Shown piece after piece: positions 6,783 through 11,242 of a DNA stretch of 11,827 nucleotides (positions are counted from its first letter, which is position 1; each line of letters starts with the position of its first letter). The translations under genes and the position numbers were made by a program. The stretch is from Fimbriimonadaceae bacterium (GTDB lineage: Bacteria; Armatimonadota; Fimbriimonadia; Fimbriimonadales; Fimbriimonadaceae): the NCBI GenBank assembly GCA_022842565.1, contig JALHPH010000002.1, positions 1 to 11,827 of the forward strand. The letters run 5' to 3'. Under the pieces are notes generated by a model that searched no databases, was not told where the DNA came from, and saw only the letters and a program-made list of their open reading frames with translations.

Positions 6783-7675
6783 TGGCACGATTGAACGATT
6801 GGTTTTTCGGCTATGGATCGCCCGCCACGCTTGCGGTCTATCGCATCCTCATCGGCACGCTGGCCCTGATGAACTGGCTGCTGCTCACTCCGTTTTACGC
6901 CGAGTGGTTCACCGAAAGTGGGTTCGTCAACCGCGAACTCACGCGCCGCTGGGCCGGCGAACTCCTGCGCATCGACCCCTTCACCGTATTCCCTTCCGAC
7001 GCACTTGCGCAAGGCGCATGGTGGGTGATGGGATTGGTCGCCGTCATGACCATTCTTGGCTACAAAACCCGGTTTGCGACGGTGGTGCTGTTCATCTGTT
7101 TGGTGGCCTTCCACCACCGAAACCCGGTCATCCTGCATAGCGGCGACACACTGCTCCGAATGAGCTTATTCGCGCTCGCCGTCTCGCCATGTGGGCTCAT
7201 GTACTCGCTCGATGCACGCAACCAAAAGGGGCCAGTGCCTGAGGTCAGTCTATGGCCGCAGCGCATGGTGCAGATCCAGATGGCCATCATGTACGCCACC
7301 ACCGTGATCCACAAAGCCTACGGCGAACTTTGGCAAAACGGCACCGCCGCCTGGTACCCGACACGGCTCGCCGAGTTCACGCGGTTCCCCGTACCACCTT
7401 TTCTCGATACCACTCCGTTCATTCAGATCGCGACTTACGGAACGCTGATCGTCGAGATCGGTTTGGCGACGCTTGTTTTTGCAAAGCCGTATCGAAAATG
7501 GGTGCTGCTGGGCGGGCTTGCGTTGCACGGCATGATCGAATGGCGAATGAACATCCCGCTGTTCGCATTCATCGCCTGCGCCCAATACATCAGCCACTAC
7601 GAAGGCAGCGAAACAGAGCGGTGGGTTCAACGCGTCCTTCACCGAAAGAGCAACCTCGAACATGCGCATTCCTAA
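6779..7675 (+). CDS. HTTM-domain (vitamin K-dependent gamma-carboxylase-like) membrane protein
   Basis: This 298-aa polytopic membrane protein has the horizontally transferred transmembrane (HTTM) fold, shared with vitamin K-dependent gamma-carboxylase. The reaction of most bacterial members is unknown. Visible features are YRILIGTLALMNWLLL (residues 21-36), a helix around 80-110 leading to FHHRNPVILHSGDTLLRM (111-128), a second helix to MYSLDAR (141-147), WPQRMVQIQMAIMYATTVIHK (159-179) followed by GELWQNGTAAWYP (182-194), and LGGLALHGMIE (244-254). The conserved HxxNP, SGD and GTAWY-like elements are typical of the family. GGAG lies 9 nt before the ATG, one of the better ribosome-binding sites in the window. 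The ATG overlaps the previous stop, and the 3' end overlaps the next start by 14 nt. The length suggests the HTTM core alone, without a carboxylase C-terminal domain. Confidence 0.85.
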   Translation: MMARLNDWFFGYGSPATLAVYRILIGTLALMNWLLLTPFYAEWFTESGFVNRELTRRWAGELLRIDPFTVFPSDALAQGAWWVMGLVAVMTILGYKTRFATVVLFICLVAFHHRNPVILHSGDTLLRMSLFALAVSPCGLMYSLDARNQKGPVPEVSLWPQRMVQIQMAIMYATTVIHKAYGELWQNGTAAWYPTRLAEFTRFPVPPFLDTTPFIQIATYGTLIVEIGLATLVFAKPYRKWVLLGGLALHGMIEWRMNIPLFAFIACAQYISHYEGSETERWVQRVLHRKSNLEHAHS

Positions 7676-8528
7676 GGGCCTGAACTATTCACTGAAAGAG
7701 GTTTTTCGCCTCTCCCCGGCCAAGACCCCGGGCTTCGGTATCACGACCGATGCCTACTGGACGATCCTCTGCGGACAGCCCACTCTTCCGATCCTGGATC
7801 ACGTGGCCCATCCCAAGGGCGAAGGTGGCGCGGTCACCGGCATGTTGGCCCCGCTGAAGGACGCCAAGAAAGATGATCATCAACAGCCCCTGCGCCGCGG
7901 AATCTACGCCTTTGCTTCCACCGACAAAAAGACGGTGCTTCGGCTCATGATCATGCCGGTGGATGAGGCCAGATTCAGCCCCGACCCCTTCTTACAATCG
8001 CCGCTCGCTTTGGAGTTTAGCGAAGAGGTACGGCTTCGGGTCGGCGCGACCTGGCACCTCATTCAGATGACCTTCGAATCGCATGACCCAGCCGTGTATC
8101 CATCGCTGGATTTGGCGCTTGCGCTTGCGCAACGCATCGCGAGTCTGACTGGGGGTGTGGTCGCCGACCCCGCGGCCACCAGCTACCGACTGCCGGAAGA
8201 AGTGCTGCAGGACCCACGCCTCGATCCGCGCGTGGATGTCCGTGAGCACATTCGGGTTCGCCCTACCGCCGAGGGGATGCTCACGCACGGCATGATCAAA
8301 TTCGGCTGGCCGGAGTACCTGATGCGCGATGTGCCGGACGACCTCGTCCAACTGGCCGGCAGCTTCCTGCTCACCGTCGGGCAACAACACCTGGTGGGCA
8401 ACGTGCTCTCGGTTGGCGATCAAGTAAACGGCTTCACAGTGACCCACGCCGGCGGAATGCCGCCTCGTCACGAGCTCATCCTGGCGAGCAGCAAAACCTG
8501 GGAAGAGGCGCTGCAGCGCGGCTCGTAG
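7662..8528 (+). CDS. Uncharacterised soluble protein (possible DUF4261-like C-terminal half)
   Basis: I do not firmly recognise this 288-aa protein. It has no signal peptide and no membrane helix. The C-terminal half shows TGGVVADPAATSYRLPEEVL (about residues 163-182), then THGMIKFGWPEYLMRDVP (208-225) and FLLTVGQQHLVGN (235-247). A 'gG.v.Dp' stretch followed by 'T.GM.KFG.PE' recalls DUF4261-type proteins of unknown function, but I hold that loosely. The N-terminal half (residues 1-110) resembles nothing I know. The ATG at 7662 overlaps the HTTM gene by 14 nt in another frame. Base composition and codon use match the neighbours, so it is a real gene and part of the hslU-HTTM transcript unit. 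It ends 27 nt before serS. Confidence 0.75.
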   Translation: MRIPKGLNYSLKEVFRLSPAKTPGFGITTDAYWTILCGQPTLPILDHVAHPKGEGGAVTGMLAPLKDAKKDDHQQPLRRGIYAFASTDKKTVLRLMIMPVDEARFSPDPFLQSPLALEFSEEVRLRVGATWHLIQMTFESHDPAVYPSLDLALALAQRIASLTGGVVADPAATSYRLPEEVLQDPRLDPRVDVREHIRVRPTAEGMLTHGMIKFGWPEYLMRDVPDDLVQLAGSFLLTVGQQHLVGNVLSVGDQVNGFTVTHAGGMPPRHELILASSKTWEEALQRGS

Positions 8529-9839
<1,311 letters not shown>

Positions 9840-9844
9840 AGGGG

Positions 9845-9874
9845 TTGACAAACCAAACGCCTAGGTGAGATAAT
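9845..9874 (+). promoter_or_regulatory. Sigma-70 promoter upstream of the rtcB leader / small RNA
   Basis: A perfect -35 TTGACA (9845-9850) and a near-consensus -10 GATAAT (9869-9874) are separated by 18 nt, starting 5 nt after the serS stop. It is the only promoter in the window with both hexamers close to consensus. Transcription should start near 9881, about 189 nt before rtcB, exactly where the paired structure begins. Confidence 0.8.
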
Positions 9875-9890
9875 CCGCGAGCCAACAGCA

Positions 9891-9983
9891 GTGAATCCAC
9901 AAATCAGTCTCAATACGCAATGCCCCAACGTTCTGGATAGAGCGCTGAATTTTGCGTATGCACGGCTCAGGATTCACGAGTAA
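9891..9983 (+). other. Possible 30-codon leader ORF inside the structured region
   Basis: A frame opening with GTG at 9891 and ending with TAA at 9981-9983 would encode 30 residues beginning MNPQISLNTQC and ending ARLRIHE. There is no Shine-Dalgarno sequence before it, and it spans both arms of the second, third and apical stems. Selection for base-pairing explains the sequence better than coding. A shorter ATG frame of six codons (9920-9940) lies in another frame. Recorded only as an alternative to a purely structural RNA. Confidence 0.15.
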
Positions 9984-10011
9984 CAAACAACACTCACTGT
10001 TGCACTCTCCC

Positions 10012-10046
10012 GCGCCGAGCTCTTCCAGAGAACTCGGCGCTTTTTT
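10012..10046 (+). terminator. Intrinsic terminator just before rtcB
   Basis: GCGCCGAG (10012-10019) pairs perfectly with CTCGGCGC (10033-10040). CTCT (10020-10023) pairs with AGAG (10027-10030) around a TCC loop, leaving a two-base AA bulge. Six T residues follow at 10041-10046. It is a strong Rho-independent terminator whose U-tract ends 23 nt before the rtcB ATG, so it either ends a separate small RNA or controls read-through into rtcB. Confidence 0.9.
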
Positions 10047-10069
10047 GTTCAAACCTATGGAAACAACTC

Positions 10070-11242
10070 ATGAAGATCATTGAAAACGTTCCTGTTTGGG
10101 GGTCGCCCGTTGATGAGGGCGCCTTAAAGCAGATCAAGACTATCGCCTCGGATTCCGCCGAGCACGTGGCACTGATGGCCGACCACCACGTCGGCTACAG
10201 CATGCCGATCGGCGGAGTCGCGGCCTACCGTGAGTACCTCTCACCGAGCGGTGTCGGCTACGATATTGCATGCGGAAACAAGGCGGTGCTCACCGACATG
10301 GACGGCGTGGAGCTTCGAAAGAATATCCACCGCGTCATGGACGACATTGCTGACAAGATCAGCTTTGGTGTCGGCCGAAAGAACAAGGAATCGGTCGAGC
10401 ACGAGCTCTTCGAGGACGACGCCTGGTCGATGGACCCGATCCGTCAGAACAAGGCGAAGTTCGAGTCGCAGCTTGGCACCGTCGGCAGCGGCAACCACTA
10501 CGTGGACCTCTTCACCGACGAGTTGGATCGCGTCTGGGTGGGAGTGCACTTTGGCTCCCGCGGCCTCGGTCATACCATTGCCACGCACTTCATTAAGCAG
10601 GGTGGCGGCACGGATGGCATGTGGGTCCCGGCGACGCTCATTCACGAGAAGAGCGACCTCGGCGAGCAGTATCTGAAGCTTCTCGAACTGGCCGGCCGCT
10701 ATGCCTACGCTGGGCGTGACTGGGTTTGCGGAAAGGTCTGTCGAATCTTGAAAACCAAGATCGTGGAGGAAGTCCACAACCACCACAACTTCGCTTGGCG
10801 CGAAAACCATGGTGGCGTCGATTACTGGGTCATCCGAAAGGGTGCCACTCCTGCGTTCCCTGGTCAAAAGGGGTTCGTCGGGGGTTCTATGGGCGATGAC
10901 AGCGTCATCTTGGAAGGTGTCGATTCGGAGGAGAGCAAGCTCGCACTCTACAGCACCGTCCACGGCGCGGGGCGTGCGCTTTCGCGAACGCAAGCAGCCG
11001 GTAAGGCAAAGCGTGGCGGACGCCGAACGGGCGGCATGATCACCGAGCGGATGATGGAAGCATGGGTGAAGGAGAAGGGCGTTGTTTTGCGCGGAGGCGG
11101 GACTGATGAGGCTCCCCACTGCTACAAGCGACTCCCCGAAGTGCTGGAACACCATGCCCCGACTATCAAGATCCTTCATCGATTAAAGCCAGTCGGCGTC
11201 GCGATGGCGGGCGGAGATACCCGTGATCCGTATAAGGACTAA
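10070..11242 (+). CDS. rtcB: RNA-splicing ligase RtcB (3'-phosphate/2',3'-cyclic phosphate to 5'-OH)
   Basis: RtcB is a GTP- and Mn2+-dependent ligase that joins RNA 3'-phosphate or 2',3'-cyclic phosphate ends to 5'-OH ends in tRNA splicing or RNA repair. At 390 aa it is close to the 408 aa of E. coli RtcB. Key motifs are intact: GVGYDIACG (61-69) with metal-binding Cys68, QLGTVGSGNHYVD (134-146) with His143, HFGSRGLGH (160-168), HNHHNF (236-241), RKGA (256-259), the guanylylated histidine in VHGAGR (His298), DEAPHCYK (346-353), and the C-terminal RLKPVGVAMA. GGAA lies 7 nt before the ATG. No rtcA, archease, rtcR or prfH gene is near. Its neighbours serS and a convergent membrane gene look unrelated. 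Regulation probably runs through the leader and terminator just upstream. Confidence 0.96.
   Translation: MKIIENVPVWGSPVDEGALKQIKTIASDSAEHVALMADHHVGYSMPIGGVAAYREYLSPSGVGYDIACGNKAVLTDMDGVELRKNIHRVMDDIADKISFGVGRKNKESVEHELFEDDAWSMDPIRQNKAKFESQLGTVGSGNHYVDLFTDELDRVWVGVHFGSRGLGHTIATHFIKQGGGTDGMWVPATLIHEKSDLGEQYLKLLELAGRYAYAGRDWVCGKVCRILKTKIVEEVHNHHNFAWRENHGGVDYWVIRKGATPAFPGQKGFVGGSMGDDSVILEGVDSEESKLALYSTVHGAGRALSRTQAAGKAKRGGRRTGGMITERMMEAWVKEKGVVLRGGGTDEAPHCYKRLPEVLEHHAPTIKILHRLKPVGVAMAGGDTRDPYKD

Follow-up and report, generated by a model that had tools for sequence, protein, structure and literature searches.

A candidate leader-peptide transcription attenuator upstream of rtcB in Fimbriimonadaceae

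Attenuators of the trp and his type depend on mutually exclusive RNA pairings that are read by ribosome position, and the rtcB leader described here is predicted to share that logic, although its peptide in our window has no run of one amino acid and the peptides vary by genome. The bmrC/bmrD attenuator of B. subtilis reportedly uses a leader peptide. It is presented as ribosome-mediated transcriptional attenuation (PMC4191407), as we propose for rtcB, but the target gene and the likely signal differ, and in the rtcB leader working stall positions are predicted across much of the open reading frame (ORF). The nearest logic that we have seen in print appears to be that of toiL, an upstream ORF (uORF) of topAI-yjhQ in E. 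coli in which a stall anywhere is proposed to open the switch (PMC12121999); toiL resembles the rtcB leader in combining a short ORF with a hairpin that represses the next gene, and it senses several translation stresses. Unlike the rtcB leader, with its intrinsic terminator and predicted antiterminator, toiL acts on translation and Rho, and its target is a toxin-antitoxin pair rather than an RNA ligase.

Control by RtcR and sigma-54 concerns the same target gene. According to two reports, RtcR activates the rtc operon of Salmonella in response to tRNA fragments (PMC7790460) and binds 5' tRNA fragments (PMC7790460, PMC5175333), and the E. coli rtc operon is activated by many kinds of translation damage (PMC5175333), with translation-impairing agents as activators (PMC7790460, PMC5175333). 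There the sensor of 5' tRNA fragments is RtcR, whereas the sensor proposed here would be the ribosome itself. Our literature search, judged mostly from titles, returned no rtcB under a leader peptide, attenuation, a uORF or a riboswitch. Here we analyse a stretch of 11,827 nucleotides from a Fimbriimonadaceae bacterium (contig JALHPH010000002.1; hereafter the window) and suggest, from its sequence and modelled folds, that the element before rtcB is probably a leader-peptide (ribosome-mediated) transcription attenuator of that gene.

The rtcB leader in the window

The leader and its gene comprise the following features.

9845..9874, plus strand: sigma-70-type promoter TTGACA-18-GATAAT, 11/12 consensus matches, TG before the -10
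9881..10046, plus strand: predicted leader transcript, its start placed about 7 nt past the -10 and its 3' end at the end of the T run
9883..10002, plus strand: predicted rod of nested stems pairing the ORF start with the ORF end (anti-antiterminator)
9883-9888 / 9997-10002: predicted outer stem CAACAG/CUGUUG
9891-9898 / 9970-9977: predicted stem GUGAAUCC/GGAUUCAC, 8 bp
9913-9920 / 9952-9959: predicted stem AUACGCAA/UUGCGUAU
9929-9934 / 9939-9944: apical stem CGUUCU/AGAGCG, one G-U
9891..9983, plus strand: candidate leader-peptide ORF, 30 codons, GTG start and TAA stop, without a Shine-Dalgarno (SD) sequence, stop 28 nt 5' of the terminator
10012..10046, plus strand: intrinsic terminator with an 8-bp stem, an inner 4-bp stem and T6, seen in the fold and by a finder (E -18.1)
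10070..11242, plus strand: rtcB, encoding a 390-aa RNA ligase RtcB (PF01139, E 1.8e-65), ATG at 10070

The architecture put forward in the original prediction, made from the letters of this DNA, was borne out. Its promoter (-35 at 9845-9850, -10 at 9869-9874, spacer 18) is the sole site of promoter quality in 9700-10200, where shuffles give 0.3 such sites; its four nested stems are recovered by folding, with a 195-nt segment at -58.6 kcal/mol and a z of -3.79 that none of 200 shuffles equalled in stability; and its terminator (arms 10012-10019 and 10033-10040) ends in six T's at 10041-10046, 23 nt 5' of rtcB. A generic terminator scan omits 10012-10046, probably from its 3-8 loop limit and the interrupted hairpin, and both the fold and a dedicated finder recover it. 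A same-strand promoter and an intrinsic terminator, as an attenuator of rtcB would need, thus stand upstream of the gene; our folding scripts took 9882 as the transcript start.

The gene product exceeds the PF01139 cut-off, and its alignment to an archaeal-type RtcB of solved structure (4dwr) runs through the conserved GYDI-CG, GSGNH, GSRGLGH and HGAGR stretches. The earlier suggestion that a leader gated by a terminator and transcribed from a sigma-70-type promoter would differ in logic from RtcR and sigma-54 also found support: a search for RtcR (PF06956) that was positive in the E. coli control detected it in none of the 85 family genomes, among which that of the window (G000) is 70% complete. 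We know of no described mechanism by which bacteria lacking RtcR control RNA repair.

The candidate ORF encodes VNPQISLNTQCPNVLDRALNFAYARLRIHE. Its GTG codon opens the 8-bp stem and its stop codon sits just past that stem. An ATG or GTG ORF of at least 20 codons ending 16-34 nt 5' of the terminator arises in 6.6% of window shuffles. The peptide shares IS.N at equal residues, followed by P..LDR, with the leader peptide of the genus-mate G002, and this likeness at equal distance from the start (p 0.008, uncorrected and the best of 55 pairs) lends modest support to a GTG start at 9891. The candidate short ORF between promoter and terminator begins in the window with a GTG that has no SD, and in relatives with an SD-led or leaderless ATG; the ORF of the window is the least secure part of the argument, which depends equally on the relatives.

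Elsewhere in the window, a 288-aa ORF (7662-8528) lies between an HTTM-domain gene and serS, and neither NCBIfam nor Pfam gives a match to it at E up to 0.001. Among named matches, those closest to serS itself come from Fimbriimonadaceae and other Armatimonadota. On the minus strand, 4119-4691 matches PagL, a lipid A 3-O-deacylase (PF09411, E 1.2e-12), a match that would be in keeping with a lipid A-bearing outer membrane in the Fimbriimonadaceae lineage.

Recurrence of promoter, short ORF and terminator before rtcB

Promoter, short ORF, intrinsic terminator and rtcB form a plan that is repeated in genomes whose leader sequences are dissimilar. At E <=1e-80, rtcB is matched in 57 of 85 family genomes. 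Family and phylum together hold 77 rtcB places at our cut-offs, and 74 upstream stretches, the window included, were examined; G079 (one base upstream), G114 and G121 were left out, and weaker rtcB matches such as that of G025 lie outside the count. Our detector, which was written once the first leaders were known, required a promoter of at least 8/12 and an ATG or GTG ORF, 6-45 codons long, that either follows an SD or is in leaderless position. The stop codon had to lie 0-60 nt ahead of a terminator scoring -12 kcal/mol or lower, and the gene had to begin within 130 nt of that terminator. The detector calls a leader in 10 of the 74 regions, and eight calls are convincing (G002, G089, G087, G009, G006, G063, G064 and G043); those in G096, inside an upstream gene, and G137, over a tRNA-like stretch, were dropped by eye. 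It misses the window, whose GTG without SD it does not count, and G070, where an SD is absent and the ATG is not immediately preceded by a promoter that scores high enough. In the 58 family regions examined it fires nine times, one of these calls being rejected, and most family rtcB regions are without a leader.

Before other genes the same arrangement is rare: with a wider span allowed, the detector fired at 0/301 in one control scan and at 6/913 in a larger one; two of these six are the rtcB genes of G002 and G089, found again, which leaves 4/911 and, over both scans, 4/1212. The control genes are open frames of at least 130 codons, not annotated genes, and come from five genomes, mostly G002; measured against them, 8 of 57 family rtcB regions (the denominator used in this test) versus 4 of 1212 other genes gives a Fisher p of 4e-9. 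Start signals fall into two kinds, an SD with ATG in G002, G089, G087, G006, G064 and G043 (there in another ORF than the one used in the folding tests), and, in G009 and G063, an ATG 7-8 nt past the -10; by eye, the second G046 gene (G046b) and G070 look leaderless.

For comparison of leaders we used 11, selected with the detector and by inspection among 20 regions whose terminator lies no more than 130 nt away; the other nine were excluded as upstream-gene ends or unclear. An ATG ORF of at least 20 codons ends 16-34 nt 5' of the terminator in nine of these 11, which were picked partly for their ORFs; shuffling the ten longer leaders yields such an ORF in 2-6% of cases, and shuffling the short G043 leader in 0%. 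RtcB proteins at least 68% identical to the window's are found in 12 family genomes, seven of them with a leader, counting the window and G070. The spacing from stop codon to terminator resembles that of ordinary genes (median 23 nt, n 37), and we dropped it as a special mark.

The original prediction had made conservation of the stems in relatives, by sequence or covariation, its own test, and such conservation was not found. The leader DNA matches nothing but the window itself among 40 related genomes, and six of the 11 leaders, when aligned, give 5 invariant columns of 215; because the leaders cannot be aligned, no meaningful covariation test can be made. Nor are the leader peptides conserved, even within a genus, a dissimilarity that disfavours a conserved arrest peptide and favours a switch acting in cis. 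Linkage of the leader to serS was likewise rejected, since the gene after serS differs among the relatives that we read.

Beyond the family, rtcB regions in the phylum have a terminator in three cases (G124, G137 and G111), none accepted as a leader. In other phyla, the window's RtcB subfamily (E <=1e-60) occurs in 4 of 48 genomes, and the detector finds no leader at those four loci; at L229 the upstream sequence runs to no more than about 75 bases, and at L228 a terminator-like hairpin is present but no ORF was called. A separate arrangement precedes the first rtcB of G046 (L141, G046:C3), where a promoter-like CATAAT, an SD and a 6-codon ORF (MTRFSP) are followed by a strong hairpin without a T run ahead of the gene. 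It could represent the rtcB leader switch in reduced or translational form.

Predicted three-state folding of the leader

The proposed switch turns on a pairing between two further segments.

9960..9966, plus strand: predicted antiterminator 5' half GCACGGC, within the final third of the ORF
10014..10020, plus strand: predicted antiterminator 3' half GCCGAGC, overlapping the terminator 5' arm

Transcription would begin at about 9881. If the leader were untranslated, the ORF region would fold as the rod, the terminator at 10012-10046 would form and rtcB would be off. A ribosome that had reached the stop codon (9981-9983) would cover the 3' part of the ORF, and the terminator would again form and keep rtcB off. 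A stall before about two thirds of the ORF had been read would instead break the rod, so that 9960-9966 could pair with 10014-10020 and RNA polymerase could read into rtcB. We infer both translation of the ORF and stall-driven read-through, and the natural trigger may be translation trouble, such as a broken tRNA or rRNA that RtcB mends, a guess from RtcB function.

We scored three states, namely no ribosome, a ribosome stalled at each codon and a ribosome at the stop codon, by the capture of the terminator 5' arm by upstream RNA, with the stall mask reaching to 12 nt past the A-site codon. In the window, predicted capture energies are -1.4 kcal/mol for free RNA, -10.6 for the best stall and -1.5 at the stop, a stall margin of 9.1 kcal/mol that 2 of 400 dinucleotide shuffles match. 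The original prediction had seen no convincing antiterminator, and this stands for the free RNA but not for RNA carrying a modelled stalled ribosome: the pairing, with its one A-A mismatch, appears only with the 5' part of the leader masked. Stalls with the A site at any codon up to about 20 are predicted to expose it, those at codons 5-14 more weakly. When the terminator 3' arm is included, the terminator wins at equilibrium even under ribosome stall, and the switch would therefore have to act during transcription. A decision made while the RNA is being synthesized is usual for attenuators.

Across the 11 leaders, in whose choice the folding tests played no part, the predicted margin is at least 8 kcal/mol in five (G002 14.4, G089 9.5, G064 9.1, the window 9.1 and G063 8.9). 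It is lower in six (G087 5.2, G009 4.6, G070 4.0, G006 3.4, G043 2.9 and G046b -0.3), and these do not clearly stand beyond their shuffles, which reached the margin in 3/40, 2/40, 7/40, 8/40, 8/40 and 31/40, respectively, and in larger sets in 19/200 for G087 and 14/200 for G009. An antiterminator that excludes the terminator and is seen only under stall is accordingly predicted in the window and not clearly in those six. Two entries depend on the ORF used: G043 was folded with a shorter ORF (MKLVYGGFPA) than the detector's, and G046b, which enters the counts with its 14-codon ORF, has a margin of 7.1 with a 30-codon leaderless ORF chosen afterwards (4/100 shuffles). Ordinary gene ends with terminators reach 8 kcal/mol in 0 of 46 cases and 6 kcal/mol in 4 of 46, and leaders and gene ends differ by a rank test on the margin (p 2e-4) and by a Fisher test at 8 kcal/mol (p 1e-4; thresholds of 3, 4, 6 and 8 kcal/mol were tried). 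A simpler antiterminator score separates them as well, with a mean z of -2.27 for the 11 leaders versus +0.45 for the 46 gene ends (p 2e-5).

Stall profiles by codon are fairly flat in G002, G089, G063 and the second G046 gene. Since nearly every codon in the first two thirds of the leader is predicted to be a stall site that releases the antiterminator, and since leader peptides differ between genomes, the leader could be a codon-agnostic stall sensor that reports many kinds of translation arrest, among them the loss of any tRNA that is cut, and switches on the resealing ligase. We put this forward tentatively, at somewhat less than even chances.

Alternative readings and implications

Could the element instead be a discrete small RNA, whether 6S-like or of another kind, that acts in trans and lies before rtcB by chance, with rtcB reached by read-through? 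The original prediction had kept a separate RNA in play, and the rod fold with its open internal loop, its z of -3.79 and the strong terminator would all fit. The 6S model RF00013 also finds nothing in 85 family genomes (under stricter filters, with at most 26 candidates scored per genome), so that a divergent 6S could sit anywhere; the same model gave matches in control genomes that included E. coli and B. subtilis, and any 6S RNA of these genomes is beyond its search. The leader itself, however, has no Rfam match at gathering scores or at E up to 10 and no sequence relative in 40 genomes, the same place in relatives holds dissimilar sequences with SD-led or leaderless ORFs, and the window's three-state pairing is beyond chance, all of which leaves this reading unlikely. 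With no known RNA family matched, riboswitch or T-box identity was rejected. A leader that senses a ligand or RNA, whether as a new riboswitch or through being cut and religated by RtcB itself, with the ORF incidental, would account for the strong internal structure, but the aligned leaders show no visible conservation of the kind expected of a ligand pocket, and the ORFs are commoner than chance; we regard it as less probable again.

Only marginally below that we place the absence of any regulation, in which serS transcripts stop at the terminator, the promoter is weak or incidental and rtcB expression is basal. It draws on the tandem order of serS and rtcB, on the terminators of ordinary genes, which lie a median of 23 nt past the stop codon, and on terminator-like hairpins near the start of 45 of 301 ordinary genes. 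Yet the promoter sits between serS and the terminator, the neighbours of serS differ in relatives while promoter, ORF and terminator recur before rtcB, and the three-state margin test tells against it. A Y RNA partner of the Ro60 (TROVE) protein, as in rsr-yrl-rtcBA operons, is highly improbable: Y RNAs are encoded together with rtcBA in Salmonella (PMC7790460), but the leader matches no Y RNA family, and TROVE, found in 32 of 85 family genomes, occurs in two of the 11 leader genomes (G070 and G089) and was found neither in G000 (70% complete) nor in G002 (99%). Y RNA identity was rejected on the missing family match and the TROVE counts, among which the negative for the incomplete G000 carries little weight. 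Separately, G058, G061 and G045 each have a TROVE (Ro60-like) match on the rtcB strand, its end lying about 0.7-0.8 kb before that gene, possibly an Rsr-rtcB operon in Fimbriimonadaceae.

Ribosome-mediated attenuation, the reading that we favour, would tie an RNA ligase directly to the process that its substrates serve. It predicts that rtcB is induced by tRNA-cutting enzymes and ribosome inhibitors, and such a stall attenuator would provide an RtcR-like response to translation damage without a protein sensor. If the leader does respond to stalls irrespective of codon, it would constitute a self-contained damage-to-repair loop that replaces RtcR.
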